Positions 14,253 to 64,000 of a stretch of 64,000 nucleotides of DNA are shown in pieces (the stretch's first letter is position 1; the number at the start of each line of letters is the position of its first letter). Made by a program: the position numbers and the translations under genes. Under the pieces are notes generated by a model. That model was given only the letters and a program-made list of their open reading frames with translations. It had not been told where the DNA came from and ran no database searches. Source of the DNA: Emticicia sp. CRIBPO (GTDB lineage Bacteria; Bacteroidota; Bacteroidia; Cytophagales; Spirosomataceae); assembly GCF_009905725.1 (NCBI RefSeq), contig NZ_JAAAKV010000007.1:62001-126000 (forward strand). Direction: 5' to 3'.

Positions 14253-14268
14253 TATTAAATTTTTTTAA

Positions 14269-14276
14269 CAAATCTA
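14269..14276 (-). promoter_or_regulatory. putative -7 element for fucosidase-sialidase
   Basis: On the minus strand this reads TAGATTTG, a full TAnnTTTG match, 17 bp before the fucosidase ATG. No strong -33 TTTG is apparent. Confidence 0.4.
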
Positions 14277-14381
14277 CTTAATTTTTCCGCAAAAAAAGAC
14301 CCCTTACCCTGATTTTGGTAAAATCAATTTTTAATCAATAACATAAACAGAAGGGAGTAAGACCTATGCAAATCCCGAAGA

Positions 14382-45990: not shown

Positions 45991-46212
45991 TATATGTGCC
46001 TTTTCTATACTCCACCTTTCAGCGACACCGCCTTGATGCTTTTCTTAATACATATCTTTATATTCCCGTAAAGGTAATCAGTTGGGCCTTTGCACCCTCG
46101 CATTCAGGTAAAATTTTGTATGACTCCGCCTCACAGCTTTTAAGGTTCACAAAATATTTTTCACAGACTTATTATTTTATGCCGGATAAAAAACTTTACT
46201 TTGCATCGTAAT

Positions 46213-46294
46213 CTCAAAAGGGGTGCCTTAATATTTCGGGCTGAGATCATACCCATTGAACCTGATGCGGCTAGTACCGACGAAGGGAATTGAG
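46213..46294 (+). ncRNA. TPP riboswitch (THI element)
   Basis: The conserved core is nearly canonical: GGGGTGCC at 46220-46227, CTGAGAT-CATACCC around 46241-46254, TGAACCTGATGCGG and GTACCGACGAAGGGAA. CTCAA (46213-46217) and TTGAG (46290-46294) close the P1 stem. It binds thiamin diphosphate and should switch off the receptor gene 124 nt downstream when thiamin is plentiful. Confidence 0.95.
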
Positions 46295-46349
46295 CAACAT
46301 GTTAGGATTTTTCTTTGCATAAGCTTATTTATCAGTTTATTTAAAATTT

Positions 46350-46377
46350 TGTCAACCAAGGGCTATGCCCCGTGACA
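46350..46377 (+). promoter_or_regulatory. possible expression-platform hairpin of the riboswitch
   Basis: TGTCA (46350-46354) and TGACA (46373-46377) enclose GGGC-TAT-GCCC, forming a two-part stem between the aptamer and the start codon, followed by a moderately T-rich stretch. It could act as a terminator or as a cover of the translation start. Confidence 0.4.
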
Positions 46378-46418
46378 GGTTTTGCTCCTTTATCTGTTTC
46401 GTAATAATTCATGTTATT

Positions 46419-48689
46419 ATGAAATTTATTTCTTTAACTTCCTCCAAAAGAGGCCTTTCTTCAAAACCAAAGCGGTTGTTACCGGCTTTGCTTATTCCTT
46501 TATTATTGGCTGGTTCGGCAGTTTCTGCCCAAACCGACTCCGCCAGGGTCAACTCCCTGAACGAAGTGGTGGTGAAGTCCATCAGGGCCACAGAAAAAAC
46601 AGGGATGTCTTTTACCAATGTCGGTAAAAAAGAACTCCGGAAACAGAACCTTGGCCAGGACATTCCGTTTCTGCTTAATCAGCTGCCGTCGGTAGTGAGC
46701 ACTTCCGATGCAGGAGCAGGTGTGGGTTACACAGGCATCAGGATCAGGGGCACAGACCCGACCAGGATCAATGTGACCGTTAACGGGATTCCATTTAACG
46801 ACTCTGAATCTCAGGGTGTTTTCTGGGTCAACATGCCGGATTTTTCTTCGTCAGTACAAAGCATCCAGGTGCAGCGTGGGGTCGGAACATCTACCAACGG
46901 AGCCGGGGCTTTCGGAGCGAGTATCAACGTCAATACCTTGTCGTACGAGAAAGACCCCTATGCCGAAACCAACATTTCGGTGGGGTCATTCAACACCATC
47001 AAGACGAACGTACTGGCCAGTACAGGCTTAATGAATGATCATTTTGTGATCGACACCCGTCTTTCCAGGATTGCTTCCGACGGATTCATTGACCGCTCAG
47101 GTTCTAACCTGAGATCATTCTTTCTTTCGGGTGGCTATTACGCCAAAGACAACTTCATCCGTCTAAACGTTTTCTCAGGCAAGGAAATCACCAAACAGGC
47201 CTGGGAAGGTGTGCCTGAGAGTGCCGCAAAAGGTGACCTGAAAGGCATTAATGATTATGTTTCCAGAAACTACTTTGACGATGCCTACAAGAATGAACTG
47301 ATCAGCAGGGGAAGGAAATTTAATCCCTATACTTATGACAACCAGGTGGACAATTACCAGCAGGATCACTATCAGCTGATTTCGTCGTTCAAACTTAACC
47401 AGTACTGGAGATTTAATCCAACGCTGCATTATACTTACGGCAGGGGCTTTTATGAACAGTACAGGCCTGATGATAAATTCTCAAGCTACGGTTTACCCAA
47501 CATCACCATCGGCAATACCGAGATCAAGCGTTCTGACCTGATCAGACGCAAGTGGCTGGATAACCATTTCTACGGCGGTGTGTGGTCGTTTGATTATGAA
47601 GGCCCTTCAAAAATCAATGCGACGATCGGTGGTGGCTGGAACAGGTATGAAGGCAAGCACTTCGGAGAGGTGATCTGGGCAAGGTACAATCCGTCGTCAG
47701 ATACAAAATACAAATGGTACAATAACAAAGGAACCAAAAACGATTTTAATATTTATACCAAGGCATTTTACCAGTTTAATCCCAAGCTGAATGCGTACGT
47801 TGACCTGCAGTATAGAGCAGTCAACCTGTCGATCCTGGGGATTGCAGACAAATTGCAATCGGTGGATTACAGCAAAACGTTCAACTTTTTTAACCCGAAA
47901 CTGGGTCTGAATTATGCGATGAGTCAGACCAGCTCAGCTTATTTGTCGTATGCTGTCGGCAACAAGGAACCGGGCCGTCAGGACTTTGTGGATAACGCCC
48001 CGGCTGTTCCGAAACATGAAACATTGCAGGATCTGGAATTGGGTTACAGGGTCAACACGGGGACATTCAAGGCGGAAGCCAATGTTTACTACATGAATTA
48101 CAAAGACCAGCTGGTATTGACCGGAAAGGTAAACAACGTAGGTGAGGCCATCAGGATGAACGTAGCTGACAGTTACCGTGCCGGACTCGAACTGCAGGCA
48201 TCTGCAAGACTCTCGCCGATGTGGGTGATCGGTGCCAACGCGACTTTCAGTCGGAACAAAATCAGAGATTTTACGGAAACCATTCCAAGTGAGACAGAAG
48301 GTAAAACGATTATCAACCAGTACAGCAATACTGATATTTCGTTTTCTCCGAACCTGATTGCCGGAGGGCAACTGAGTTTTATGCCGCATCGCCGTTTTGA
48401 AATCACTCTATTGTCGAAATATGTTTCGAAGCAATTCCTTGACAATACGGCAAGCGAAAGCAAAAAAATCGATGCCTTTTTCGTGAATGATCTGCGATTG
48501 GTCTTTACGCCTGCTCCGAAGCTCCTGAAAGAGCTTCAGATCAGCCTACTGGTTAATAATATTTTCAACCATCAATATGAATCGAACGGTTACACTTACA
48601 GCTATGAATATGAAGGGGTGGTGACAGAAAACTTCCTTTTCCCACAGGCCGGAATTAACTTCCTGTCGGCTGTCCGTTTAAGATTCTGA
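46419..48689 (+). CDS. TonB-dependent outer-membrane receptor, probably for thiamin
   Basis: From the ATG at 46419 the protein has 756 aa; an ATG at 46365 would put 18 unrelated residues in front of the signal peptide, which ends GSAVSAQ. The TonB box/plug begins with LNEVVVKSIRATEKTG and continues with LLNQLPSVVSTSDAGAGVG, GIRIRGTDPTRINVTVNGIP and VQRGVGTSTNGAGAFG, all standard. The barrel ends with a terminal Phe (FLSAVRLRF). The TPP riboswitch in the leader argues for uptake of thiamin or its phosphates, as known for riboswitch-controlled receptors in Bacteroidota. No pnuT or thiamin kinase gene follows. Confidence 0.9.
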   Translation: MKFISLTSSKRGLSSKPKRLLPALLIPLLLAGSAVSAQTDSARVNSLNEVVVKSIRATEKTGMSFTNVGKKELRKQNLGQDIPFLLNQLPSVVSTSDAGAGVGYTGIRIRGTDPTRINVTVNGIPFNDSESQGVFWVNMPDFSSSVQSIQVQRGVGTSTNGAGAFGASINVNTLSYEKDPYAETNISVGSFNTIKTNVLASTGLMNDHFVIDTRLSRIASDGFIDRSGSNLRSFFLSGGYYAKDNFIRLNVFSGKEITKQAWEGVPESAAKGDLKGINDYVSRNYFDDAYKNELISRGRKFNPYTYDNQVDNYQQDHYQLISSFKLNQYWRFNPTLHYTYGRGFYEQYRPDDKFSSYGLPNITIGNTEIKRSDLIRRKWLDNHFYGGVWSFDYEGPSKINATIGGGWNRYEGKHFGEVIWARYNPSSDTKYKWYNNKGTKNDFNIYTKAFYQFNPKLNAYVDLQYRAVNLSILGIADKLQSVDYSKTFNFFNPKLGLNYAMSQTSSAYLSYAVGNKEPGRQDFVDNAPAVPKHETLQDLELGYRVNTGTFKAEANVYYMNYKDQLVLTGKVNNVGEAIRMNVADSYRAGLELQASARLSPMWVIGANATFSRNKIRDFTETIPSETEGKTIINQYSNTDISFSPNLIAGGQLSFMPHRRFEITLLSKYVSKQFLDNTASESKKIDAFFVNDLRLVFTPAPKLLKELQISLLVNNIFNHQYESNGYTYSYEYEGVVTENFLFPQAGINFLSAVRLRF

Positions 48690-48717
48690 AAATCCTGATT
48701 CTTTCTTTTGCAGAAAC

Positions 48718-48749
48718 AAAAAATGCCGGTATGAATGCCGGCATTTTTT
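48718..48749 (+). terminator. terminator of the thiamin receptor gene
   Basis: A perfect 12-bp stem (48718-48729 with 48738-48749, loop TATGAATG) whose outer pairs are an A-run and a T-run. Confidence 0.8.
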
Positions 48750-48849
48750 GTTTACAAACCCGGCCATTTTTAACAAAAACGCCTCTGATTGCTGTAATTT
48801 GTACAAACTTCCGTATTATTGGTAAAAATATTACCCAACCTCTCAACAT

Positions 48850-50187
48850 ATGTCAGAAGTCACAAACCCCAAACCTAATCAGTTATTAAAGCTTTTAGGA
48901 GTAGGATTCGGAATAGCAGTCACCATCGGCGGAACCATAGGAACCGGCATACTCAGAAAACCCGGTCCGATAGCCGCTCAGCTGGGAGATCCGTGGCTGA
49001 TCATGGGGGTCTGGATATTGGTGAGTGTCTATGCTTTTCTGGGTGTTTTGTGTGCAATTGAACTGGCCGTTTCCATGCCTCAGGCCGGTGCCTGGTATGT
49101 TTACGCCAGACGTGCTTTCGGTAATTATGTTGGTTTTATTACGGGCATCACCAGCTGGTTCGGAACAGTGGCCGCTCTGGGTTTCGGGGCCTTTACGATG
49201 AGTGAGTATATTGCCTTGCTCCTGCCCCAGACAGAAGCTTACCTGAGGCTAATGGCGATTGGCATATTGATTTTACTGACCGGATTCCATTGGCTGGGCA
49301 CCAAATCCGGAGGAAAGTCGCAGGAAGTGCTGGCATTTCTGAAGGCCCTGGGGCTTTTGATTTTTGTGGTTTTGTGTTTTATTTATGGCGGAGATGTCAA
49401 TTATGCCGCTCTCGCCTCCACCACCCAATCCATTGAAAAACCGGCTTTGATATTCGGTGTGATCGCCGCTTTGCAGGCTGTTTTTTATACTTTTGATGGC
49501 TGGCACACTGCGGGCTATTTTGCTGAAGAAAACACAGACCCTGCCAAAAACCTGCCCAAATCAATGATCGGAGGAGTTTTACTGATCATTTCAATCTATT
49601 TGCTGGTCAATCTTGCTATCTTATATGTGCTTCCGATGGACATCCTGGCTAACTCTAAACTGGCGGCGGCTGATGCCATTTCACTGATTTTCGGTGAGCA
49701 GTCGGCCCGGATCGTTACGCTGTTCCTGATGTTATCGATCCTCGGTATCGTCAATGCCCAGGTGATGTTTGCCCCGAGGGTCATCTATTCTATGAGTCGC
49801 GACGGACTGTTCCACAAAGCAGTACAGAAAATCAATGCAGGAGGTACGCCTTCTGTGGCCATGCCCTTAACTTCCATAGGTTCTGTATTGCTGATCTTAT
49901 CCGGAAAAGAGATCTGCGGTATTTTATCCGATATTGCCACCTTCTTCTTTGTGATGAGCTATGTTGCCGGATTTGCGGCATTGATCAAACTGCGGAAATC
50001 GGAACCTGACCTTCCAAGACCATTTAAGGTGATTGGATTCCCGTTTGTGCCTTACATCCTGATCGTAACTTCTGTTTTGTTCCTGGTCGGAGCCATCTAC
50101 CAGGACCTGAAAAGCAGCCAGTTTGCCCTGATCTTCCTGGCTTTAAGTTACCCGCTTTACAGGTTGCAGCAAAGGTTTCTGAACTGA
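48850..50187 (+). CDS. APC-family amino acid/amine permease
   Basis: A protein of 445 aa with twelve hydrophobic segments. The family signature in TM1 reads TIGGTIGTGILRKPG (about 26-40), and FYTFDGWHTAGYFAEE corresponds to TM6. This fits cationic or neutral amino-acid permeases of the APC superfamily; the substrate is not predictable. It is 71 bp upstream of the second DUF5690 gene on the same strand with no clear terminator between, so both may be expressed together and may serve the amine/phosphonate block that follows. Confidence 0.87.
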   Translation: MSEVTNPKPNQLLKLLGVGFGIAVTIGGTIGTGILRKPGPIAAQLGDPWLIMGVWILVSVYAFLGVLCAIELAVSMPQAGAWYVYARRAFGNYVGFITGITSWFGTVAALGFGAFTMSEYIALLLPQTEAYLRLMAIGILILLTGFHWLGTKSGGKSQEVLAFLKALGLLIFVVLCFIYGGDVNYAALASTTQSIEKPALIFGVIAALQAVFYTFDGWHTAGYFAEENTDPAKNLPKSMIGGVLLIISIYLLVNLAILYVLPMDILANSKLAAADAISLIFGEQSARIVTLFLMLSILGIVNAQVMFAPRVIYSMSRDGLFHKAVQKINAGGTPSVAMPLTSIGSVLLILSGKEICGILSDIATFFFVMSYVAGFAALIKLRKSEPDLPRPFKVIGFPFVPYILIVTSVLFLVGAIYQDLKSSQFALIFLALSYPLYRLQQRFLN

Positions 50188-50258
50188 CCTCCGGTAAACA
50201 TTACCAAATGACAACACTTCCATAACATCCAGTTTACGTTGGAATTTGATTTTTGTCC

Positions 50259-51557
50259 ATGAAAAATCGAATTTCAGAATTACTGGAGCGGAAACCTGTT
50301 TTCCTTATTATCTGGGCCATTGTGGCGGCTTTCGGAACGTACTTTTGTACCTATGCCCTTCGCAAGCCATTTTCTACGGGACAGTTTCTTAACCTTGAAT
50401 TGTTCGGGGTCAGCTACAAAACAGTCCTGATCATCGCCCAGGTTTTCGGGTATATGTGTTCCAAATTTCTGGGTATCAAAATCGTTTCTGAACTCAGGGC
50501 CGAACACCGCATAAAACTCATTGCCGGACTCATCATCATTGCTGAGCTGGCCCTGGTGGGTTTTTCTGTGGTCCCGCTATCTTATAAATGGATTTTCCTG
50601 ATCATCAACGGTTTGCCTCTCGGAATGGTCTGGGGTCTCATTTTCAGTTTTCTCGAAGGACGTAAGTTCACTGAATTGCTCGGACTGGGGCTGAGCGTCA
50701 ACATGATTATGACTTCTGGCATACTCAAGTCATTTTACCTTACCCTGCAGCGGCAATTTCACTTCAGCGAGTTTCAGATGCCTTTCATCATCGGCCTGAT
50801 TGCTTTGCCGTTTTTTGCTGTTTTTTTATGGATGCTCTCCAGGATACCCGTTCCGAACCAGGAAGACGTGAGCCTTAGAAGCAAACGGAAGCCCATGAAT
50901 AAATTCCAGAAAATGAACGTGCTCTACCATTACGGTCTGGGCATTTTCATGCTGATCATTTCCTATACCATTTTTACGACCATCCGCGACTTCAGGGATA
51001 ATTTTGCAGTAGAAATCTGGAATGAGATTGACCCCTTGCACGACCTGGCGGTTTTCGGAAAAATCGAAACATTCATTGCCCTGATTGTTATGGGCATCAT
51101 AGCTACGCTGGTATTTATCAAAGACAATGAAAAGGCCTATTTCCTGATAAGCGGGCTGATGTTTGCCGGTATTCTGATGGGTGGAATCGCCACTTCCATG
51201 TTTGTCAACCACCAGATCGGTGTGTATCCCTGGATGGTGCTGCTGGGTGTTGGCCTGTTTTTCCCCTACCTGTTGATTCAGATAGCCGTTTTCGAGCGGC
51301 TCATCGGCTTATTCAAACTGAAAGCCAATGCCGGTTTCCTGGTCTATTTATGCGACTCCCTCGGCTACCTGGGCAGCGTAGCGGTATTGCTGATGAAAGA
51401 GTTTTTCTGGGCAGACCTGAGCTGGGCAAATGTCCTTATCAAATTTGCGATGGGCTCTTCGGTCCTTGGTGCCCTGCTGATTGCCCTGCAGTTCCTGTTC
51501 TTTGTCAGAAAACTGAATGAAAAAAGGGGGAAAGACCTTCAACTTGTCGTCAAATGA
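50259..51557 (+). CDS. DUF5690 family MFS-like transporter, copy 2
   Basis: From the ATG at 50259 the protein has 432 aa; a TTG six bases upstream is less likely. It is a clear paralogue of the protein at 40102-41385: AFGTYFCTYALRKPFST, LIIAQVFGYMCSKFLGIK, GLPLGMVWGLIFSFLEGRK and TTIRDFRDNFAVEIWNE all have counterparts. About twelve membrane segments. From memory, DUF5690 genes often sit beside TIGR03364-type oxidoreductases and phosphonatase-like hydrolases in Bacteroidota, as here, which makes it a candidate importer for their substrate. A weak CCCC/GGGG hairpin at 51562-51582 separates it from the convergent oxidoreductase gene. Confidence 0.78.
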   Translation: MKNRISELLERKPVFLIIWAIVAAFGTYFCTYALRKPFSTGQFLNLELFGVSYKTVLIIAQVFGYMCSKFLGIKIVSELRAEHRIKLIAGLIIIAELALVGFSVVPLSYKWIFLIINGLPLGMVWGLIFSFLEGRKFTELLGLGLSVNMIMTSGILKSFYLTLQRQFHFSEFQMPFIIGLIALPFFAVFLWMLSRIPVPNQEDVSLRSKRKPMNKFQKMNVLYHYGLGIFMLIISYTIFTTIRDFRDNFAVEIWNEIDPLHDLAVFGKIETFIALIVMGIIATLVFIKDNEKAYFLISGLMFAGILMGGIATSMFVNHQIGVYPWMVLLGVGLFFPYLLIQIAVFERLIGLFKLKANAGFLVYLCDSLGYLGSVAVLLMKEFFWADLSWANVLIKFAMGSSVLGALLIALQFLFFVRKLNEKRGKDLQLVVK

Positions 51558-51599
51558 ATTTCCCCCGGAAATATTGGGGTGAATAGAGATCTTTTTAAA

Positions 51600-52742
51600 T
51601 CAGAACAATCCGGCTATTACTTCGCCTGCGTACCCGGCTCCTGAGCTCATGCCCTTTCCGCCGATGCCCGTTCTGATATGAATATTGGAGCTGATGTCAT
51701 GTTCAAAAATTTCGTTGGGATGCTGTGCATACAATCCCGCCCAGTTCTGAGCGATGTTCTGTACGTTAAAGTCTACGATCCTGGCTGCTTCTTTCAGCAT
51801 AAGTTCGTCGATAAACTCTTTAGAACCCAGCCCGAGGTTTTCGACTTCGCCCACCCCGGCATATTCGTGTGAATCGCCGACAATGATTGATCCGTCTGCC
51901 CCTTGCTTAAATAAAATGTGAATGCCCCATTGTTTCAGCTCTCTGAGATGCTCAGGAGTCTCCAACCGGGAGAAAGAAGGACATTGCTCAAACGACTCGT
52001 ATCGCCTGATGGTAAGGCCTGTCAGGATATTGCTGCCCAGTTTAACTTCTGGCATTGGGTGTGTCTTGAGCATCTGAAGTTTGCTGACGATCAGCCCGCT
52101 GCTGCGGTAAATATCAGGAAAAAGCAGGTTGAAAACATAGCCACTGCAAATAACGACTTTATCAGCCAGCAGTTTTTCATTTCCTGCCAGGGTCAATTCC
52201 GCTCCGGCCGGTGTGTCTTCACAGGCCACTACCGCCCTTGAGGTTTGTAACTCCACGCCATATTCAGCCTGTACAAATTCCAGTAATTTATAAATCAGCA
52301 GATGAGGCTCAACGCTCATATCGCCCGGATAAAAGATCCCTCCCCTGGCATAAGATGATTTAATATGGCGAAATTTACCGGTCACTTCGTTGGCGTCCAG
52401 CAATTGGTTTTCATACCCCAGGTCCTGGTGAATTTTGCTCATTTCCTGAGCCACCTGCCACTCGGCTTCGTCTGAAGCAATGTAGACACTTCCCTGCTGA
52501 GTGATTGAAACGTCAGTTTTTTGCTGGATTTCCTTATATATTTCCAGGGTTTTCAATCCCAGGTCAAACCATTTTCCGGCCAGTCCTGAGGGTACCACCT
52601 GCCCGAAGTTCTGAACTGTAGAACCCACCGGACGGTTGTCTTTTTCCAGGATCAATACTTTTTTACCTTTCCTAGCCGCATGATAGGCATGAAACGTACC
52701 CAATACCCCTCCTCCAACTACAATCAGATCATATTTTTTCAT
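51600..52742 (-). CDS. FAD-dependent oxidoreductase, TIGR03364-like (phosphonate-associated)
   Basis: A DAO-family flavoenzyme of 380 aa. The FAD-binding motif is DLIVVGGGVLGTFHAYHAA (5-23), followed by a GSTVQNFGQVVPSGLAG segment specific to this group and a C-terminal GIGGKGMSSGAGYAGEV. Enzymes of this type oxidatively deaminate or demethylate amines, and this subfamily recurs in phosphonate gene clusters. Its start overlaps the end of the phosphonatase-like gene by 14 bp, so the two are tightly coupled. A sensible model is oxidation of an aminoalkylphosphonate to an aldehyde for the hydrolase, but the substrate is inferred from neighbours only. Confidence 0.82.
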   Translation of the reverse strand: MKKYDLIVVGGGVLGTFHAYHAARKGKKVLILEKDNRPVGSTVQNFGQVVPSGLAGKWFDLGLKTLEIYKEIQQKTDVSITQQGSVYIASDEAEWQVAQEMSKIHQDLGYENQLLDANEVTGKFRHIKSSYARGGIFYPGDMSVEPHLLIYKLLEFVQAEYGVELQTSRAVVACEDTPAGAELTLAGNEKLLADKVVICSGYVFNLLFPDIYRSSGLIVSKLQMLKTHPMPEVKLGSNILTGLTIRRYESFEQCPSFSRLETPEHLRELKQWGIHILFKQGADGSIIVGDSHEYAGVGEVENLGLGSKEFIDELMLKEAARIVDFNVQNIAQNWAGLYAQHPNEIFEHDISSNIHIRTGIGGKGMSSGAGYAGEVIAGLF

Positions 52743-53475
52743 GCTCCACCACGTTCTGTTGCTTCACAATTTCTATTATACCTGCTATGGAGTTGATGAG
52801 TCCGTCGTTCGGATAAGCCGCCAGCTGATCATGGCTGTGCGTGCCGTTGGTCACCCCAAGGCTCAGTAAACACCCGGCCTTTTTACCCGATTCAAGATCT
52901 GAAGGGGTATCGCCCACATTGATGACCTGCCACGGGTCTTCGATTCCAAATACTTCCATGGCTTTTTTAATCATATAAGGCTCCGGTCTTCCCTTGATAA
53001 CATCGTCGGGAGTCAGGGAGAGGTCGATAACTGCTGTGCCATCCATGTTGAAATGGTTTTCATCCAGACCTTCCAGCCAGCCCAGTTTTTTGAGGATGAT
53101 GTCTGCCACAATCCTGTAAAACCCGGTTGTCAAAGCTATTTTAATGCCGTTTTCTCTTAAATAAGCAAACGTTTCAAGGCAACCCTCTATAGGAATGATC
53201 TCGTGCGTTTTATAGTGGTTTTCAAGAATTTCTCTGAAAGTGTCGTAAGAAACAAATACATTTTCTTCATACTCCGGGTGGTCTTTCCCGATCTTCTCAT
53301 CCCAGAGCATCTGGAATACCTCGATCTTGGAATATCCCTGCAGAGCCAGGATACGCTCCTCCGAAACTACCAGCCCGGTCTGGCTGCAGGCCTCGGCAAA
53401 GCAGGTTTCTACTTCCTTGTTGTCCCTGACCGTCGTTCCGGCCATATCAAATACGACGAGTTTAATTTTATTCAT
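52729..53475 (-). CDS. phosphonatase-like HAD hydrolase (TIGR03351/PhnX-like)
   Basis: From the ATG at 53475 the protein has 248 aa; an ATG 39 bp upstream adds residues without homology. HAD motif I is LVVFDMAGTTV with nucleophile Asp10, and motif IV is INVGDTPSDLESGKKAG. ALTTGFYR and TPDDVIKGRPEPYM resemble phosphonoacetaldehyde hydrolase (PhnX). Lys50 in GYSKIEVF is spaced from Asp10 almost as the Schiff-base lysine is in PhnX (40 against 41 residues). Two other PhnX active-site positions (Met49, His56) are Gln46 and Val53 here, so the substrate may differ. First gene of a two-gene operon. Confidence 0.82.
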   Translation of the reverse strand: MNKIKLVVFDMAGTTVRDNKEVETCFAEACSQTGLVVSEERILALQGYSKIEVFQMLWDEKIGKDHPEYEENVFVSYDTFREILENHYKTHEIIPIEGCLETFAYLRENGIKIALTTGFYRIVADIILKKLGWLEGLDENHFNMDGTAVIDLSLTPDDVIKGRPEPYMIKKAMEVFGIEDPWQVINVGDTPSDLESGKKAGCLLSLGVTNGTHSHDQLAAYPNDGLINSIAGIIEIVKQQNVVEHEKI

Positions 53476-53791
53476 TCCTGTATGTCGGTTTTCACTGAAA
53501 AATCCAGCTCGCAAATATCCTGTTTAAAGAAAGAAAACTCCGGTTTCCAATGTTAAGGAATATTTAAATTTCAGAAAACCACTAACCTCCGGGCTGCCTA
53601 CTCCCTTTAATAGGTATTATACCGAAACTATGTTATGTCAATATTAAATCCCGGGCTTTTTTGAGAAGAGAACTTTAAGAACAGTTTACTTTTCCTTAAT
53701 GATTAGTTTTTATTGATACTCGTATTTTGTGTCCGCAAATGAATGGGTGTAAACCCTTACAGATTCATGTGCAAAAACACTAAATAATCAT
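53476..53791. other. divergent intergenic region, HAD gene / susC
   Basis: A 316-bp spacer that should carry both promoters. On the minus strand GATATTTG near 53511-53518 is one base off the -7 consensus for the hydrolase gene. In the susC leader, ATGAAT (53739-53744) and ATTCAT (53763-53768) enclose GGGT-GTAA-ACCC, a nested stem-loop. No Pho-box-like repeat was recognised. Confidence 0.3.
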
Positions 53792-56700
53792 ATGTATATG
53801 TACCAAACTTTACCAAAGAAAATCAAACTATTTGGCAAATCCATGAGCAGACTTCTGTGTGTTCTGATGGTTTTTGCCGGATTTCAGACCTTCGCTCAGA
53901 CCACTGTTACCGGAACTGTCAAATCAGACAAAGGGGAGGCGATTCCCGGCTCCAGCGTTTTACTGAAAGGCACGCAGACTGGTAGCTCTACAGGTGTTGA
54001 CGGTTCTTTCAAAATCATCGTTCCGAATTCAGGTTCGGTTCTTGTGTTTTCTTCTATCGGTTATGTTTCTGCTGAAGTTACTGTAGGAAACAAATCTATC
54101 ATCAATGTTACGCTGATTGAAGATTCCAAAGCCTTGAGTGAAGTGGTGGTAACAGCCCTTGGTATTAAAAAGGATGCCCGCAGAATCGGGGTGTCTATCC
54201 AGAGTGTTGACGGTGCCTCTACTATCAAGGCAAGAGAGCCGAATGCGATCAACGCACTGGCAGGTAAAGTGGCCGGTTTAACCATCGGAGCCCAGCCTGA
54301 ATTGCTGAGAAAACCAAATATCTCATTGAGAGGTAACTCTGAGGTTCTGTTCGTTGTTGACGGTGTGCCTATCAACTCTGATACCTGGAACGTCAGCCCT
54401 GATGATATCGAAACTTACTCTGTTCTGAAAGGTGCCTCAGCGGCTGCCCTTTATGGTTTCAGAGGTAAAAACGGTGCCATCCTGATCACAACCAAAAGAG
54501 GTTCTAAAGATAAAAGAGGATTCTCAGTGGATGTCAATTCATCTACCATGCTGGATAATGGTTTTTATGCCATCCCTAAAGTACAGGACGAATATGGCCC
54601 TGGTGACCACGGCCGTTATTCATTTGTAGATGGTAAAGGTGGCGGATTAAATGACGGTGATTATGACGGTGGCTGGGGCCCTAAATTCGACGGTCAGCCT
54701 ATCGCTCAGTATGACAGCCCGATTGACCCTGTTACAGGCCAGAGAATCCCTACACCCTATATCGCAAGAGGAAAAGACAACCTTACGAGGTTTCTTCAGA
54801 CAGGGATCCTTTCAACCAACAACGTCTCTGTATCCTCTTCAGGAGATAAATATAATCTTCGCTTTTCTGCTTCTCATACTTATCAGAAGGGAATTGTTCC
54901 AAATACTAAACTGAACATCACGAACTTCAACCTGACTTCGGATTACCAGTTTTCGAAAAGACTTAAATTTGAATCGGGTCTGCAATACAACCGTCAGTAC
55001 ACTCCGAATATTCCGGATGTAAACTACGGTCCGAACTCAATCATTTACAACATGGTGTTGTGGGCAGGTGCTGACTGGGACGTAGACGACATGCGTAACT
55101 ACTGGCAACCGGGCAAAGAAGGCATTCAGCAGATTTATGCAGAATACCAACGTTACAACAACCCTTACTTCATGAGTTACGAGTGGTTGCGTGGACACCA
55201 GAAGTCTGACATCATCGGACAGGCCGCCATGACTTATAATGTTACCGATTATCTTGACGTGATGTTAAGAACTCAGGTGACTACCTGGGACTTGTTCAGA
55301 AGCGAGAAATTCCCGTACTCAGCCGGTTCATATGGCCGTGACGAGAGAAGAGGTGACTACCGTGAAGACAGACGCAAGCTTTTCGAAAACAACACCGACA
55401 TACTTGTTAAATTCGACAAAGATCTTTTCAAAGATTTCAACGCTAAAATCTGGGCGGGTGGTAACATCAGAACTTTTGAATACAGCTCTCAGTACGGATC
55501 AACCGATTACCTGAACGTTCCGGGATTGTATAACTTCAGTAACTCGGCCAACCCTGTAAGAACAGCTAACTTCAACTCGGCGATGCGTGTTAACTCAGCT
55601 TATTACTCTGCTGACTTTACCTACAAAAACCTGTTGACACTATCTACTACAGGCCGTGTGGATAAGCTTTCGACATTACCGCAAGGAAACAATACGTTCT
55701 TCTATCCGTCGGTTGCCCTTTCGACAGCTTTAACAGATTACCTGCCTTTACCTTCAGCAATTTCATTCCTGAAACTGAGAGGTTCATATGCGAACGTAAA
55801 AGACGGTCTGACCCGCTCAACCATCGGTACTACCCCAAGTTTGGGTGATGGTAACCCGCTTGGATACGGAGATCAGTACTACTCTCCTTATGATGGCCCG
55901 TCATATCAGAACTCTGCAGTTTATACCACGCCGTTCTCTTATAACAACCAGCCGTCGGCATATTATACCAACGGATTGAACAACCCTGGTCTGCAGCCAA
56001 GTTCTACCTCTCAGACAGAGTTAGGTTTTGATGCAAAATTCCTTCAGAACCGTCTAGGTCTTGATCTGACGTATTTCATCTCGGATGAAGGTCCTAGAAT
56101 CTTCTCTCTTCCGATCTCGACTACTTCAGGATATAGCTCGGCCCTGGTAAACGGTATCAAAACCCAGAAAAAAGGATGGGAAATATCATTGTCAGGTTCT
56201 CCGATCAAAAACGCTACAGGATTTAACTGGGATATCGTAGCCAACTATTCTACTTACCAGGAAAGACTTACAGAGATCTATCCGGGTGTTGAAAGCCTGA
56301 ACAGGTTCTTTAAAGTAGGTGACCGTATGGACAAATTCTATGGTACGGCTTTTGCTAAAACGCCGGAAGGACAAATCATTAATGACGCCTCCGGCCGTCC
56401 GATTACAACTCCCGTTCCCCAGTTTCTTGGTTATATCAATCCTAAGTTCGTGTTTGGTATCAACAACAAGTTTTCTTACAAAAACATCAGCATGAGCTTC
56501 CAGTTTGATGGCCGTATCGGTGGTGTGATCTCTAACTACATTCAGCGTCAGACTTTCAGAGGTGGTCGTAACATCGCATTGGTTCAGGGCGATATGGCTA
56601 CAGCGAGATACCAGGATTTCCTGGGTAACAAAACTTACGTAGGTCAGGGTGTTCAGGTAGCCAATGGTGCTTCTATCAACTTTGATGCAGCGGGTAAGAT

Positions 56701-57028
56701 TACCAACTATGCGGAGCTTACTTATGCTCCGAACACCACCAAGCAATTCCTTCAGGATTATGTAGCCCGTTATTACAACACGGATGAGGGTAACCTGATG
56801 AGCCGTTCGTTCGGCATGCTGAGAGAAGTAGTCGTAGGTTATTCACTTCCTAAAGAGTGGATCGGTAAAAACATCCAGAATGTATCAGTTTCATTGGTGG
56901 GCAGAAACCTGCTGTATTTCGCGGAGAAGAAGGACATCGATCTTAACCAGTACATCACTGACGGAGGGTCGGGTCTTCAGACACCGTCTACCAGAAGATA
57001 TGGTATCAACTTCAGCCTGACATTCTAA
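53792..57028 (+). CDS. SusC/RagA-type TonB-linked outer-membrane transporter
   Basis: A protein of 1078 aa with a long signal region ending FAGFQTFAQ (about 36). A carboxypeptidase-regulatory-like domain follows (TVTGTVKSDKGEAIPGSSVL, 38-57 onward), then the plug with ALSEVVVTALGIKKDARRIG, ISLRGNSEVLFVVDGVPIN and VLKGASAAALYGFRGKNGAI, all typical SusC blocks. The 22-strand barrel ends with a terminal Phe. SusC proteins form a pedal-bin importer with the SusD lipoprotein encoded 26 bp downstream. The ligand is not readable from sequence; the phospholipase gene that follows suggests a phospholipid-derived compound. Confidence 0.93.
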   Translation: MYMYQTLPKKIKLFGKSMSRLLCVLMVFAGFQTFAQTTVTGTVKSDKGEAIPGSSVLLKGTQTGSSTGVDGSFKIIVPNSGSVLVFSSIGYVSAEVTVGNKSIINVTLIEDSKALSEVVVTALGIKKDARRIGVSIQSVDGASTIKAREPNAINALAGKVAGLTIGAQPELLRKPNISLRGNSEVLFVVDGVPINSDTWNVSPDDIETYSVLKGASAAALYGFRGKNGAILITTKRGSKDKRGFSVDVNSSTMLDNGFYAIPKVQDEYGPGDHGRYSFVDGKGGGLNDGDYDGGWGPKFDGQPIAQYDSPIDPVTGQRIPTPYIARGKDNLTRFLQTGILSTNNVSVSSSGDKYNLRFSASHTYQKGIVPNTKLNITNFNLTSDYQFSKRLKFESGLQYNRQYTPNIPDVNYGPNSIIYNMVLWAGADWDVDDMRNYWQPGKEGIQQIYAEYQRYNNPYFMSYEWLRGHQKSDIIGQAAMTYNVTDYLDVMLRTQVTTWDLFRSEKFPYSAGSYGRDERRGDYREDRRKLFENNTDILVKFDKDLFKDFNAKIWAGGNIRTFEYSSQYGSTDYLNVPGLYNFSNSANPVRTANFNSAMRVNSAYYSADFTYKNLLTLSTTGRVDKLSTLPQGNNTFFYPSVALSTALTDYLPLPSAISFLKLRGSYANVKDGLTRSTIGTTPSLGDGNPLGYGDQYYSPYDGPSYQNSAVYTTPFSYNNQPSAYYTNGLNNPGLQPSSTSQTELGFDAKFLQNRLGLDLTYFISDEGPRIFSLPISTTSGYSSALVNGIKTQKKGWEISLSGSPIKNATGFNWDIVANYSTYQERLTEIYPGVESLNRFFKVGDRMDKFYGTAFAKTPEGQIINDASGRPITTPVPQFLGYINPKFVFGINNKFSYKNISMSFQFDGRIGGVISNYIQRQTFRGGRNIALVQGDMATARYQDFLGNKTYVGQGVQVANGASINFDAAGKITNYAELTYAPNTTKQFLQDYVARYYNTDEGNLMSRSFGMLREVVVGYSLPKEWIGKNIQNVSVSLVGRNLLYFAEKKDIDLNQYITDGGSGLQTPSTRRYGINFSLTF

Positions 57029-57054
57029 TCGCCCATTATTTTAAAGACAAGAAA

Positions 57055-58647
57055 ATGAAAATAAATAAATTAATATCCGTTTTTTCTGTAGTTCTGCTCC
57101 TGGTAGCCAGTTCATGCGAAAAATCTTTCGAGGATCTTGAAAAAGACCCCAACAGACCTGTCAACGTACCCGCTTCCCTGATCCTTCAGGGTGTTGAATA
57201 TGATCTTTACAACAGCACCGGCCGGCCTTTCAGTGCGGAGATGCGTTGGAACCAGTATTTCTGTTCGAACTATAACTATTATGCGACGAACGAATATACC
57301 TGGACAGAGATGAACAACCATTTCTTCACGATCAAAAACGTGATCAAAATGGAAGAAGAAGCCCTTCGTTCCGGTGCTGATGCTGTTAACCCTTATTCTG
57401 CTTTGGGTAAATTCTTCAGGGCTTTTTATTATGACCAGATGACCAAAAAAGTAGGGGACCTGCCTCTGTCTGAGGCTTTGAAAGGCATTGCAGAAACAAC
57501 GCCTGCTTATGACAGCCAGAAAAACATCTACATCCAGATCCTGAAATGGCTGGAGGAATCAAACACTGACCTGACGGCCCTAATCGCCAAAGGTCAGAAT
57601 ACCATCACCGGTGATTTCTATTATGGCGGAGACCTTAAAAAATGGCAGAAGGCTGTCAACGCATTCCAGTTGAGAATCTTGTTGACATTGAGCAAAAAAG
57701 ACAGCGACACCGACCTGGCTGTTAAAACCAAATTTGCCCAGATCGTAAGCAATCCTGCCAAATATCCTTTATTGACTTCAACTGACGAAAGCCTTCAGTT
57801 TGTATCGAACAATTTCAACAAATATCCTTCTAACCCGGATAACTTCGGTTTCGATGCTACGCGTCAGAACATGGCTAAAGCCTACGTTCAGCCGTTGGTA
57901 GACAGAAAGGACCCAAGGGTAATGAGAACCTGTGAGCCGGCCGGATTCGAATTGAAAAGCGGTAAACTCCCTTCTGATTACACTGCTTACATCGGAGCAA
58001 GCTCAGGCGAAGACCTGGCCGATATGGCTTCCAATGCAGGAGTAAACAACGGAGCGGGATTTGCACCGGGTAAATACTCATTCCAGAACAGGAACAGGTT
58101 TTATACCAATTATATAGGACAAAACACCGCCATCGTAGGTTATTCTGAAATGTGTTTCAACATTGCAGAAGCTTACCACAGAGGCTGGGCAACTGGTAGT
58201 GCTGAGGACTGGTACAAAAAAGGTATTCAGGCATCCCTTGGTTTTTATGGCATCACCAATGGTGTAAATACCATGACCTATTCAAAAACAGGTGGTCGCG
58301 AAGCTTCTGATTTTGCCACTTTCACTGTCAATTTTGACTTCGATACTTACTATGCACAAGCCAATGTGAAATACAAAGCTGACAACAGCGGTCTGGAAAA
58401 CATTCTTACTCAGAAATACCTGGCTTTCTTCATGAACTCAGGTATGGAAGCATACTTCAACTGGAGAAGAACAGGATTCCCTACCTTCTATACAGGTGTG
58501 GGAACAGGTAACTCAGGCAGGATTGCCGTTCGCTGGCAATATCCGATCTCTGAGATCACTACCAATCCTGAAAATTACAAAAAGGCTATTGACAGCCAGT
58601 TTGCCGGAAAAGACAATATCAATGAAGTAATCTGGCTTCTGAAATAA
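57055..58647 (+). CDS. SusD/RagB-type nutrient-binding lipoprotein
   Basis: A lipoprotein of 530 aa with lipobox ASSC (Cys21). It opens with SFEDLEKDPNRPVNVPASLIL and has the TPR-like helical body of the SusD-like_2 (PF12771) branch; MCFNIAEAYHRGWA and AYFNWRRTGFPTF in the C-terminal half are characteristic. It should sit as the lid of the SusC channel on the cell surface and bind the ligand first. The PF12771 branch is often linked to peptides or small molecules rather than polysaccharides. A strong terminator follows about 95 bp downstream. Confidence 0.9.
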   Translation: MKINKLISVFSVVLLLVASSCEKSFEDLEKDPNRPVNVPASLILQGVEYDLYNSTGRPFSAEMRWNQYFCSNYNYYATNEYTWTEMNNHFFTIKNVIKMEEEALRSGADAVNPYSALGKFFRAFYYDQMTKKVGDLPLSEALKGIAETTPAYDSQKNIYIQILKWLEESNTDLTALIAKGQNTITGDFYYGGDLKKWQKAVNAFQLRILLTLSKKDSDTDLAVKTKFAQIVSNPAKYPLLTSTDESLQFVSNNFNKYPSNPDNFGFDATRQNMAKAYVQPLVDRKDPRVMRTCEPAGFELKSGKLPSDYTAYIGASSGEDLADMASNAGVNNGAGFAPGKYSFQNRNRFYTNYIGQNTAIVGYSEMCFNIAEAYHRGWATGSAEDWYKKGIQASLGFYGITNGVNTMTYSKTGGREASDFATFTVNFDFDTYYAQANVKYKADNSGLENILTQKYLAFFMNSGMEAYFNWRRTGFPTFYTGVGTGNSGRIAVRWQYPISEITTNPENYKKAIDSQFAGKDNINEVIWLLK

Positions 58648-58663
58648 GAGCCGGAGAACGGTA

Positions 58664-58687
58664 AATGGAGAAAGGAAAAAGGAGGAC
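58664..58687 (+). repeat. purine-rich dispersed element, copy 2
   Basis: Matches 21088-21111 at 23 of 24 positions. Immediately downstream, TTTCCTTTCT (58694-58703) is the exact complement of AGAAAGGAAA (58669-58678), so this copy can fold. Confidence 0.35.
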
Positions 58688-58741
58688 TTCTCGTTTCCTT
58701 TCTTAAAGATCTCTCTTATAGTTTAGGTTAATAAATGATTC

Positions 58742-58773
58742 AAAAGCGGGGAAGGCTTCTTCCTCGCTTTTTT
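58742..58773 (+). terminator. terminator after susD
   Basis: A 13-bp stem with one G-T wobble (58742-58754 with 58759-58771, loop GCTT), then T and CGTTTTGG. Confidence 0.75.
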
Positions 58774-58964
58774 CGTTTTGGCTGATGTTTATTCACTTTC
58801 TGTTCAGATACAATAGTCTTTTTCAGTCCTTCCGGGGTATCTCATTTAGTTTACATAAAAGTAATAAAAGGCCATTGTTCCTGTTTTTATTTTTAGATAA
58901 CTTGCCGGTCTGTTTACAATCTTAAAATTTAATGCTTCAGGCCGGAATTCCCGGCATTTCACCT

Positions 58965-61526
58965 ATGGAAACAAGAAGAGAATTTATTCAGAAAGCCGCC
59001 ATGCTGGCCGGAGGAGCCGGACTGGCAGGTATGCTTCCTCCTTCCATACAAAAAGCTATGGCCATTAATCCTGCAGAAGGAAGTACCTACATGGACGCTG
59101 AACATGTGGTGATATTAATGCAGGAAAACCGCTCGTTTGACCACTGCTACGGCACCCTTCAAGGGGTCAGAGGCTTTAATGACCCGAGGGCCATTAACCT
59201 GCCCAACCAGAACAGGGTTTGGCTGCAGACCAATGCTGCCGGTGAAACTTTTGCCCCGTTCAGACTGGACCTTAAAGACACCAAAGCCACCTGGATGAGC
59301 TCCCTGCCCCACTCTTGGGAAAACCAGGTTGACGCCCGTAACCACGGTAAATACGACAAATGGCTGGATGTTAAACAGTCGGGCAACAAAGACTTCAAAA
59401 AAATGCCGCTTACCCTCGGTTATTACGACCGTGAAGATATTCCTTTTTACTATGCCCTGGCAGATGCCTTTACTGTTTGTGACCAGAACTTCTGCTCGTC
59501 GCTGACAGGCACAACGCCTAACCGTCTTTATTTATGGACCGGGACCATCCGTGAGCAGCAAAATCCGGAATCAAAAGCCAATGTCAAAAACGAAGACGTG
59601 GATTATGACAAACTGGCCAAATGGAAGACCTTCCCGGAAAGACTGGAAGAAGCCGGGATATCGTGGAGAATATACCAGAATGAAATAAGTCTGCCTACCG
59701 GACTTGAAGGAGAAGAAGATTCATGGCTGGCGAATTTTACAGATAATCCTATCGAATGGTTTGAGCAGTATCATGTGAGGTTTCACAAAGAATACTACCC
59801 TTTTATCCAGAAAATGGAGAAGGTGTTGCCTGAGCAGATCGCTGCCCTGAAAACAAAACTGGAGACTTTAGACAAAGCTTCAGATGACTATAAAAAAACA
59901 CAGAGGGAAATTTCTCAGAAGGAGAATTATCTGAAAATCGTGATCAACGACCTGGAGGAATGGAAACCGGAGAAATTTGAAAACCTGAGCGATTTTGAAA
60001 AGAATATTCACAAAAAAGCCTTTACGACCAACCGCAACGACCCGCATTATCACGAATTGACGACACTCAAATATGATGATAACGGAACACCGAGAGAAGT
60101 ACAAGTGCCCAAAGGAGACGTGCTTCATCAGTTCAGGGAAGACGTTTCGGGTGGTAAACTACCGGCGGTTTCATGGATTGTAGCCCCTGAAAACTTCTCA
60201 GATCACCCGGGAGCTCCATGGTATGGAGCTTGGTACTTGTCTGAAACGATGGATATCCTTACCAAAAATCCGGAAGTCTGGAAAAAGACCATTTTCATCC
60301 TTTGTTATGACGAGAATGACGGGTATTTTGACCACGTACCACCTTATGTGGCCCCTGATCCGAATATCCCTCACACCGGAAAAGTGTCTAAGGGCATTGA
60401 CGCCGCTGTTGAACAGGTAAGTCTGGCCCAGGAGTTAAAACGCAAAAGAGAAAACCCGGAAAGAGATTCCCGTTCCAGCCCGATCGGACTTGGATACCGG
60501 GTGCCGTTGCTTATTGCTTCCCCGTGGAGCCGTGGCGGGGTAGTCAATTCCGAGATTTTTGACCATACTTCGATCCTGCAGTTCCTAGAGCAGTTTCTGA
60601 GCAAAAAAACAGGGAAGGAAATCAGGGAAAGCAATATCAGCAACTGGAGACGTACGGTTTGCGGTGACCTGACTTCTGTTTTCAAGCCTTATAACGGAGA
60701 AAAAATCAGCTTGCCTGAGTTTGTCCAGAGAACTTCTTTTATCGAGACCGTTCATAAGGCCAAATTCAAAAACCTGCCGTCCAATTTTAAGACACTCAGC
60801 AAAACTGATATTGATAAAATCAACCAGGATGCCACTTACGCGTCCATACTTCCGAAACAGGAAAGTGGTGTAAGGGCAGCCTCCGCATTGCCTTACCAGT
60901 TTTATGTGGAAGGTGGTCTATCTGCCGAGAAAAAGACTTTCGGAATCAGGTTCAAGGCGTCTGATGAGATTTTCGGAAAGAAATCAGAAGGGGCTCCTTT
61001 CATTGTGTATGCTCCGGGTAAATACAAAACCAACGCCGGTTTTGAGCCGGTAAAGGTCTGGAACTACGCAGTAGCCACCGGTGACCAGATTGAAGACCAA
61101 TGGCCGGTTTCAGACTTTGAAAACAGCCGCTATCATCTCCAGGTTTATGGCCCTAACGGATTCTTCAGAGAATTTAAGGGGACTGCCGCAGACCCTGCCA
61201 TCAAACTAAACTTTGAATACCAGAGGGGAAAAACAAATAAGAAAAGTCTGACAGGGAACCTTGAGCTCCAGATGATCAACCCTGCCGGTGCCGAAACAAT
61301 GACGGTCGAAATCACAGACCATGCCTATAATTACGGAAACCATACCAAAACCATTAAAGCCGGAAGCCAGGCCACTGTGTTGCTTGACCTTACCAAAAGC
61401 TTTGGCTGGTATGACTTCAGCGTAAAAGTTACAGGAAAAGAAGGTTTTGAAGCACGATATGCCGGCCATGTGGAAACCGGTAACCCGGGCTTCACTGACC
61501 CCGCCATGGGCAAAGCCATCGCTTGA
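58965..61526 (+). CDS. phosphocholine-type phospholipase C, Tat-exported
   Basis: From the ATG at 58965 the protein has 853 aa and a twin-arginine signal (METRREFIQKAAMLAGG); an upstream ATG at 58932 is less likely. The phosphoesterase domain (PF04185) shows VILMQENRSFDHCYGTLQG (49-67), FTVCDQNFCSSLTGTTPNR and LCYDENDGYFDHVPPYV. Two C-terminal beta domains of the bacterial phospholipase C type (DUF756) span about 650-840. The enzyme should release phosphocholine or a similar head group from phospholipids outside the inner membrane. It follows a SusC/SusD pair, though a terminator separates them. The long insert at about 270-370 is helical and Lys/Glu-rich. Confidence 0.92.
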   Translation: METRREFIQKAAMLAGGAGLAGMLPPSIQKAMAINPAEGSTYMDAEHVVILMQENRSFDHCYGTLQGVRGFNDPRAINLPNQNRVWLQTNAAGETFAPFRLDLKDTKATWMSSLPHSWENQVDARNHGKYDKWLDVKQSGNKDFKKMPLTLGYYDREDIPFYYALADAFTVCDQNFCSSLTGTTPNRLYLWTGTIREQQNPESKANVKNEDVDYDKLAKWKTFPERLEEAGISWRIYQNEISLPTGLEGEEDSWLANFTDNPIEWFEQYHVRFHKEYYPFIQKMEKVLPEQIAALKTKLETLDKASDDYKKTQREISQKENYLKIVINDLEEWKPEKFENLSDFEKNIHKKAFTTNRNDPHYHELTTLKYDDNGTPREVQVPKGDVLHQFREDVSGGKLPAVSWIVAPENFSDHPGAPWYGAWYLSETMDILTKNPEVWKKTIFILCYDENDGYFDHVPPYVAPDPNIPHTGKVSKGIDAAVEQVSLAQELKRKRENPERDSRSSPIGLGYRVPLLIASPWSRGGVVNSEIFDHTSILQFLEQFLSKKTGKEIRESNISNWRRTVCGDLTSVFKPYNGEKISLPEFVQRTSFIETVHKAKFKNLPSNFKTLSKTDIDKINQDATYASILPKQESGVRAASALPYQFYVEGGLSAEKKTFGIRFKASDEIFGKKSEGAPFIVYAPGKYKTNAGFEPVKVWNYAVATGDQIEDQWPVSDFENSRYHLQVYGPNGFFREFKGTAADPAIKLNFEYQRGKTNKKSLTGNLELQMINPAGAETMTVEITDHAYNYGNHTKTIKAGSQATVLLDLTKSFGWYDFSVKVTGKEGFEARYAGHVETGNPGFTDPAMGKAIA

Positions 61527-63140: not shown

Positions 63141-64000
63141 ATGTCTCTTACATCACTGACGCTTGACAGAAGCCTTCAAAAGAAGATCAAATTTCTGTTA
63201 TTTATCCCGAAATTCATTGTTAAGTTTTTGTTAGCAACTGTAGGCTGGGTGCTGACATCAGCCCTGTGTTTTTATACCCAAACCACTGTTTTTGACTTTC
63301 CTGAAACCACTCCGTTTGGAGGAGAAAACATCCATAACCCCTACCAGGAAGTAAAAGGACAGGTCATCAAAGCCAATTTTCATGCCCATTCAAAAGCCTG
63401 GGGGGGACTTACCAACGGTCATAATTCTTCTGAAGAGTTGCTGGACTCCTACCAAAAGAAAGGTTACGCTTTTGCAGGCATCTCCAATTACTTTGCGACC
63501 GATCCGCTCAATAAAAATTTCGCGGTTTATGAACATGGCATCAACCTGATGAAGTCTCACAAACTGGCCATCAACCCTTCCTCGGTCGAGTACTTTGATT
63601 ATCCTTTATTTCAAAACCTTTCTCAAAAACAGGACATCATCAACAGGCTTCGCGACAACGACGCCCTGGTGGCTCTGGCCCATCCCAATTTTATGAAAGG
63701 CCACTCCACAGAAGACATGAAGCAACTGACAGGATACCACTTTACTGAAGTCCTCAATCACTACCGTACTTCCGAAGAAGAATGGGATGCTGCCCTGAAA
63801 ACAGGTAAGCTGTCCTGGATACTGGCCAATGATGATACACACGACATTCATAATGAACCCACGCATAAAATCTGGAATGAAATCTATGTGACTTTACCCG
63901 GAAATAACCAGATGACGAAAAGCCTGCTGGAGGGTAAAAACTACGGCATCAACACCAAAAACGGCATAAATGATCTGAGTATAAAGCAATTGAAGGTAAT
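63141..64000 (+). CDS. PHP-domain protein, N-terminal part (cut by window edge)
   Basis: An ATG at 63141 opens a frame that continues to the window end, 286 codons, with no stop. One hydrophobic segment (about 19-45) would anchor it, with the rest outside. A PHP-type metallo-phosphoesterase pattern is visible: NFHAHSKAWGG (79-89, His81 and His83), SSVEYFDYP with Glu150, LVALAHPNF with His181, and ANDDTHDIH with Asp231/Asp232 and His234. PHP enzymes hydrolyse phosphate esters or act on DNA. A membrane-tethered member has no clear assigned role. The C-terminal end is not seen. Confidence 0.75.
   Translation, partial: MSLTSLTLDRSLQKKIKFLLFIPKFIVKFLLATVGWVLTSALCFYTQTTVFDFPETTPFGGENIHNPYQEVKGQVIKANFHAHSKAWGGLTNGHNSSEELLDSYQKKGYAFAGISNYFATDPLNKNFAVYEHGINLMKSHKLAINPSSVEYFDYPLFQNLSQKQDIINRLRDNDALVALAHPNFMKGHSTEDMKQLTGYHFTEVLNHYRTSEEEWDAALKTGKLSWILANDDTHDIHNEPTHKIWNEIYVTLPGNNQMTKSLLEGKNYGINTKNGINDLSIKQLKV

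Follow-up and report, generated by a model that had tools for sequence, protein, structure and literature searches.

A probable oxidative aminophosphonate route joined to SusC/SusD import in Bacteroidota, with a likely role for DUF5690 at the inner membrane

Does a run of adjacent genes for transporters, an amine oxidase, a phosphonatase-like hydrolase and a phospholipase C serve one pathway and, if so, on which compounds would that pathway feed? The question is raised by a stretch of 64,000 nucleotides from Emticicia sp. CRIBPO (analysed whole, and hereafter the window), taken from a genome of 6.06 Mb in 39 contigs, in which an initial annotation had proposed a seven-gene locus for taking up and dismantling phospholipid head groups or aminophosphonates. 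The latter are molecules with a carbon–phosphorus (C–P) bond that are found bound in lipids and glycans of other organisms. Profile matches recover all seven genes at the positions proposed, and our answer, which draws on the gene content, conserved linkage and conserved catalytic and pocket residues that we observed, is that the locus very probably takes up and mineralises aminophosphonates, most likely 2-aminoethylphosphonate (AEP) along with N-methyl-AEP and 1-hydroxy-AEP. It is a well-supported case of the oxidative route for AEP combined with import through the outer membrane as Bacteroidota practise it, and it gives DUF5690 a probable function.

As for its extent, the proposal held for five genes, encoding DUF5690, a flavin adenine dinucleotide (FAD)-dependent oxidase, a HAD hydrolase, SusC and SusD, which form a conserved, predicted aminophosphonate locus; it did not hold for an APC permease at one end or for position 61526 as the other end. 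The features of this core are as follows.

50253-51557, + strand: DUF5690, predicted inner-membrane permease (PF18943, 463 bits)
51600-52742, - strand: FAD-dependent amine oxidase, PbfD-type (TIGR03364, 342.8 bits, cut-off 285.1)
52729-53514, - strand: phosphonatase-like HAD hydrolase (TIGR03351, 187.1 bits, below the cut-off of 218.9)
53476-53791, no strand assigned: divergent intergenic region between HAD and SusC (sequence read)
53792-57028, + strand: SusC-type TonB-dependent outer-membrane transporter (TIGR04056, 488 bits, cut-off 368.25; TIGR04057 signature)
57055-58647, + strand: SusD-type surface lipoprotein (PF12771, 202 bits)
58742-58771, + strand: terminator-like hairpin between SusD and phospholipase C (13 pairs, T-rich tail)

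The DUF5690 and HAD genes are both listed with a TTG start codon, their probable starts being the ATG at 50259 for the former and, 13 codons downstream of the listed start, the ATG at 53475 for the latter. The HAD gene has 14 bases in common with the FAD gene, and the region between HAD and SusC is presumed to be a control region. Promoter consensus matches number 33, barely above the 26.5 in shuffles (standard deviation 5.1), and the hairpin has the longest stem among 22 terminator consensus matches, although it should be read as a consensus match only since shuffles average 20.6.

The main argument comes from linkage within the same family, for which we sampled 101 genomes from 36 genera. 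At E 1e-40 or better, these contain 84 matches to the FAD family (83 above the cut-off), 76 of which have a HAD gene within 500 bp; DUF5690 is no more than 3 kb away from 48 of them and no more than 10 kb away from 55, in an order and orientation relative to HAD-FAD that vary, so that the link has outlasted rearrangement. Seen from the permease, FAD, HAD or a PhnZ-type HD gene (Phn-HD) is found within 10 kb of 71 of the 113 DUF5690 copies (113 of 114 rows, a 31-residue fragment of genome G092 being excluded and two G025 pieces on different contigs being counted as two). On the outer-membrane side, the window SusD has 67 clear orthologues (at least 450 bits), 59 of which are within 10 kb of FAD, HAD, DUF5690 or Phn-HD, against 10 of the 77 other SusD matches listed, a control that comprises the better-scoring part of these matches and not the weakest; all ten of the latter are within 10 kb of Phn-HD. 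Counted by genus, the contrast is 20/24 for orthologues versus 4/18 for the other matches listed (where a SusD gene is split, its second fragment is not counted, which removes six rows from the SusD counts). At the same distance, 54 of the 67 orthologues are near Phn-HD, 40 near FAD and three near phospholipase C, and by this linkage the window SusD belongs to a subfamily tied to predicted aminophosphonate genes. Since an orthologous SusD lies within 10 kb of 40/84 FAD genes, and 59/67 orthologues are linked as above, the co-occurrence of the SusCD and HAD-FAD blocks, whose lack of conservation the initial annotation had named as grounds for abandoning its proposal, is conserved; these counts also favour its scheme, by which an aminophosphonate enters through SusC/D and then, within the cell, undergoes oxidation of its amine and cleavage of its C–P bond.

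The same association is seen across the phylum, in a sample of 335 genomes of which 33 have DUF5690, 27 FAD (26 above the cut-off) and 13 Phn-HD. DUF5690 co-occurs in 25/27 FAD genomes (Fisher 1.3e-28, a value that ignores relatedness) and in 13/13 Phn-HD genomes, a second phylum-wide Fisher value, which likewise ignores relatedness, being 6.8e-15; it is on the same strand within 500 bp of FAD in 15/27 and within 3 kb in 19/27. Eight of the 33 DUF5690 genomes are without a FAD match, three of which either have PhnW or Phn-HD close by or elsewhere on the contig (G226, G114) or are ambiguous. No member of the FAD, HAD, Phn-HD or PhnW clusters was seen in loci L089, L090, L091, L094, L095 and L096. 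Relatives of the window SusC recur near HAD, FAD, DUF5690 and Phn-HD, and in one locus from another family (L101) the genes for SusC, SusD, a PhoD-like enzyme, HAD, FAD, Phn-HD and DUF5690 are consecutive on one strand.

Further detail comes from 80 named loci, those among 597 DUF5690 relatives that are most like the window's copy, a ranking that biases them to the linked kind; their neighbours were called with profiles from neighbour clusters that we defined ourselves and with self-set score limits (example checks: PhnW 590.5 bits, cut-off 400.8; PbfA 634, cut-off 525). FAD, HAD, Phn-HD, PhnW or PbfA is within 10 kb in 72/80, the nearest catabolic gene being within 300 bp in 63 and on the same strand in 56. 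FAD oxidase and PhnW alternate around DUF5690, with FAD in 47 loci, PhnW in 20 and both in one (Fisher 1.1e-8, ignoring relatedness), which offers a testable case of enzyme substitution around one transporter. SusD is found in 32/80, and 23 of these 32 also have one of four phosphoesterase families with export-signal-like starts. Emticicia loci L109 and L110 keep the window order, without phospholipase C (DUF5690-FAD-HAD-SusC-SusD-Phn-HD-AP-fold enzyme), and a few of the named loci are outside Bacteroidota by record title (for example Bowmanella, and metagenome-assembled genomes (MAGs) of Stenotrophomonas and Verrucomicrobiales).

What would the two enzymes of the core do? The FAD oxidase passes the curated TIGR03364 cut-off and, judging by its sequence, likely converts an aminophosphonate to phosphonoacetaldehyde. 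PbfD1 of A. baumannii, which is annotated in TIGR03364, oxidises N-methyl-AEP, PbfD2 also oxidises AEP, and PbfC and PbfD enzymes yield phosphonoacetaldehyde from N-methyl-AEP (PMC10590968; TIGR03364 membership of PbfD2 is not stated in the sections consulted). The HAD hydrolase has phosphonoacetaldehyde hydrolase 2iof as its closest PDB relative, with K63 aligned to a lysine of the latter, and over 97 rows D23 is conserved in 94, K63 in 94, R176 in 96, and D202 and D206 in all 97. We take the 2iof lysine, number 53, to be the Schiff-base lysine, and the conserved HAD residues to be an Asp nucleophile, the Schiff-base Lys, an Arg and an Asp pair. Because these PhnX-like catalytic residues are kept, the HAD is expected to act like PhnX even though it is not a member by score (the TIGR03351 cut-off is reached in just 6/101 same-family genomes), and it likely cleaves the C–P bond.

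The transaminase PhnW had been noted as absent from the window, an absence that extends to the whole genome, where the best hit, at 44.9 bits, is background for a family whose cut-off is 400.8; in all four control genomes (4/4) the same search found PhnW above the cut-off, and there it shares a contig with DUF5690. A separate search of the 101 same-family genomes, in which no positive hit of any kind served as a gauge, gave no PhnW match at E 1e-60. The FAD gene stands next to a phosphonatase-like HAD gene in a genome whose best PhnW hit is below the cut-off. A route that does without PhnW by combining an oxidase with a phosphonatase is already published (PMC10590968).

How would the substrate cross the inner membrane? 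An AlphaFold2 model of DUF5690 (pLDDT, the predicted local distance difference test, 93.6; 47 sequences) has a major facilitator superfamily (MFS) fold, for which Foldseek gives the first five ranks to SLC37A4 (human G6PT) and the 30th to GlpT. Since the scores of other MFS proteins come close to these, the fold is that of the MFS, with no more than a leaning to organophosphate antiporters; an hhalign comparison with the organophosphate:phosphate antiporter (GlpT/UhpT) family, weak by itself, gives a probability of 48 and a pairwise E of 1.8e-4. When DUF5690 is aligned with E. coli GlpT, UhpT and UhpC, GlpT Y38, Y42, R45, K46, Y76, K80, Y266, E299 and Y393 are identical and in register in 44-47 of the 47 DUF5690 rows, and these nine we take to be pocket residues. 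With its neighbours, fold and pocket residues, DUF5690 is the likely importer of the aminophosphonate across the inner membrane. In a tree of 77 copies, linked ones (those with FAD, HAD, Phn-HD or PhnW no more than 8 kb away in the stretch retrieved) are scattered over many branches, with 11 changes of state, tallies that do not represent a sample since loci were picked partly for being linked or unlinked.

On balance, we favour the broader view that DUF5690 is an unrecognised aminophosphonate permease family, apart from AepP and ABC importers, which would mark a widespread Bacteroidota locus made of dedicated SusCD pairs, interchangeable exported phosphoesterases harvesting phosphonolipids or phosphonoglycans, and interchangeable inner modules (PhnW, FAD oxidase, PbfA, PhnZ-type). 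If this function is true, the inner-membrane step would be labelled in many genomes (33/335 in the phylum, and 90/101 in the family, where DUF5690 is present), and surveys would gain a marker beyond PhnW or C–P lyase for the use of AEP, described as the commonest natural phosphonate (PMC10590968).

Some DUF5690 loci look different. The window has a second copy (40102-41385), adjoining an AraC regulator, an MFS gene and a trehalase, and the clade of six to which it belongs differs at Y65 (F), K36 (R), D244 (E) and Y363 (T), altered pocket residues that make a different substrate plausible. In four Chitinophaga loci (L152, L155, L156, L180), an XRE-cupin regulator, SusC, SusD and DUF5690 are consecutive; known catabolic genes are absent within 10 kb in all four, and no candidate enzyme is obvious by eye in the gene lists of L152, L155 and L180. 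An XRE-cupin regulator like that at L016:12386-12961 is present in 38/80 named loci, no member being seen in window positions 30001-64000 or in L069. In L097, a type I phosphodiesterase that carries a PA14 domain (11521-13161), possibly a glycan-directed phosphoesterase, adjoins DUF5690, PbfA and HAD.

Past the end of the window, in continued numbering, the genome carries two more genes of interest.

65456-66019: PhnZ-type HD gene (TIGR03276, 210.9 bits, cut-off 214.6)
66047-67135: exported alkaline phosphatase (AP)-superfamily phosphoesterase (signal-like N-terminus)

The first, 1.5 kb beyond the window end, is the sole match to TIGR03276 in the genome at E 1e-15, and PhnZ (4mlm) is the top PDB match of its product (E 5.7e-41 over residues 10-182); the TIGR03276 cut-off is reached in 34/101 same-family genomes. 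The AP-fold phosphoesterase comes directly after it and has no sequence match in a PDB search. Its residues D29, S106, D232, H236, D278, H279 and H292 are kept in ten relatives from the named loci, and presumably make up a two-metal site with a serine nucleophile. A modelled Emticicia relative (pLDDT 83.5, 10 rows) resembles LtaS-type enzymes, sulfatases and nucleotide pyrophosphatases about equally well by score. Between phospholipase C and Phn-HD, from 63141-63998 onward, there is also a CehA/McbA-type metallohydrolase (a weak match, 27.4 bits against a cut-off of 80); L010 and L139, apparently one genome of the same genus, hold a homologue.

Put together, these parts suggest a scheme in which each step of transport and catalysis, the substrates and any shared regulation are what we infer from sequence. 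Exported phosphoesterases (the AP-fold enzyme and possibly phospholipase C) would free the head group or trim its carrier, SusC/SusD would take the product across the outer membrane, and DUF5690, as an MFS permease resembling organophosphate:phosphate antiporters, would take it across the inner one. Inside, the FAD oxidase would deaminate the aminophosphonate to phosphonoacetaldehyde, replacing the missing PhnW, the HAD would break the C–P bond by way of a Schiff base on its lysine, with acetaldehyde and phosphate as the products, and the PhnZ-type HD oxygenase would handle the 1-hydroxy form.

Two genes of the original seven fit this scheme less well or not at all.

48850-50187, + strand: APC permease (PF13520, 185 bits)
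58932-61526, + strand: exported phosphocholine-type phospholipase C (TIGR03396, 825.4 bits, cut-off 580.25)

The APC permease was rejected as a member. At the 100-bit limit used for neighbour counts of both families, a homologue is found in 1/40 FAD-centred and 0/80 named loci, and the gene lies 160 bp downstream of a TonB receptor with a thiamine pyrophosphate (TPP) riboswitch (46209-46305, 65 bits) in front of it, which makes a thiamine-related unit its likelier home, with 46365-50187 as a putative thiamine-controlled uptake unit. The phospholipase C, whose place in the locus was likewise part of the proposal, was rejected as a core member and kept as an accessory: it is within 10 kb of 2/84 FAD genes, one being the window's own, and of 3/67 SusD orthologues, a homologue occurs in 1/40 FAD-centred and 1/80 named loci, and the hairpin parts it from SusD. 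Possibly it is one of several interchangeable exported phosphoesterases and releases head groups. In L188, HAD, DUF5690, FAD and phospholipase C are on one strand, the last 50 bp after FAD, and in G075 phospholipase C is 0.6 kb past Phn-HD. L188 comes from a MAG, where the phospholipase C gene (12422-14983) reads as two open frames.

Several points weigh against the aminophosphonate reading, and some of them would suit other explanations. The opposite strands of HAD/FAD and SusCD, together with the hairpin, imply more than one transcript; 44 of the 84 FAD genes lack a SusD orthologue within 10 kb, 42/113 DUF5690 copies stand without FAD, HAD or Phn-HD over that distance, and the relatedness of genomes inflates all linkage counts. 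The strands, the hairpin ahead of phospholipase C and those 44 FAD genes are compatible with two independent neighbours, adjacent by chance, in which a HAD-FAD-DUF5690 unit for aminophosphonates would sit beside a SusCD and phospholipase C unit for ordinary phospholipids. We hold this to be unlikely, since SusD orthologues track phosphonate genes (54/67 for Phn-HD and 40/67 for FAD) and not phospholipase C (3/67), and since L101 has the whole set as a single-strand array. Nor does ordinary phospholipid metabolism appeal as the main role, with head groups such as choline or ethanolamine as the substrates and phosphonates as a side activity: the window does encode an exported phosphocholine-type phospholipase C, from a family found in 59/101 same-family genomes, but this enzyme is seldom linked, the APC permease is unlinked, and the recurrent neighbour clusters that we identified include no choline or ethanolamine catabolic family. 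This makes it extremely improbable, and phosphocholine and phosphoethanolamine find no specific support as substrates.

The enzymes and the permease bring difficulties of their own. The HAD fails TIGR03351 (187.1 vs 218.9 bits) and the PhnX family TIGR01422 (103.4 vs 220), and the HD protein narrowly misses TIGR03276 (210.9 vs 214.6). In DUF5690, the invariant R243 is four positions past the GlpT R269 column, and thus out of register, GlpT H165 is not common to the family, the Y393 counterpart is Thr in 15/55 linked and 16/22 unlinked members of the 77-copy set, and the profile has 0 matches among PDB sequences at E 10; moreover, four clades of at least three members are wholly unlinked in the tree (the second window copy with five others; L089/L090/L091; L054/L055/L057; L058/L059/L060). 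Could HAD and FAD then act on another amine or phosphate ester, with phosphonate names that are merely inherited, and DUF5690 carry an ordinary organophosphate? The HAD scores and the closeness by fold of DUF5690 to sugar-phosphate antiporters would agree with this, which nevertheless strikes us as very unlikely: the HAD conserves a Schiff-base lysine that ordinary HAD phosphatases are not known to need, and the FAD, PhnW, PbfA and PhnZ-type genes around DUF5690 share an aminophosphonate theme.

How, finally, does this locus compare with known systems? The oxidative route and phosphate-linked SusCD are already published, whereas DUF5690 as an aminophosphonate permease was not found in the literature searched; neither were the terms DUF5690, PF18943 and pfam18943 in that literature, which spans few subscription journals and no bioRxiv preprints, nor, at the level of titles and abstract starts, an aminophosphonate locus of this kind. 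The closest relative on the enzymatic side is the PbfD + PhnX route (PMC10590968), which likewise has a TIGR03364-type oxidase adjoining a phosphonatase in a genome without PhnW, and from which the window differs by a divergent HAD, below the PhnX and PhnX-like cut-offs; the main text of that paper has no word beginning with Bacteroid-, no DUF and no TIGR03351. As for the crossing of both Bacteroidota membranes by AEP, previous pointers are the co-localisation of PusCD with phosphonate enzymes and one AepP (PMC8115612, PMC8316502). PusCD pairs adjoin phosphonate-degrading enzymes in Flavobacterium (PMC8115612), and the window locus, too, combines a SusC/D pair with phospho-enzymes, the differences being that PusCD are known from expression under phosphate depletion and the window locus from genes alone, and that the text seen of PMC8115612 names neither the phosphonate genes nor a permease family. 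AepP of Pseudomonas putida BIRD-1, also found in one Bacteroidetes strain, Kriegella aquimaris, resembles DUF5690 in being an MFS protein of the organophosphate antiporter type (27.75% identical to GlpT, E 9e-37) that is encoded with AEP catabolism (PMC8316502). Owing to the missing PDB match at E 10 and the shifted arginine of transmembrane helix 7 (TM7), DUF5690 is taken to be a family apart from AepP, the latter being judged by its description. The HD protein past the window is like PhnZ (PDB 4mlm), an HD oxygenase usually partnered by PhnY*, as its E-value above indicates. In its overall design, the window locus follows the same outer-membrane import logic as polysaccharide utilisation loci, which pair SusCD with exported hydrolases, with phosphoesterases and C–P enzymes where the latter have glycoside hydrolases.

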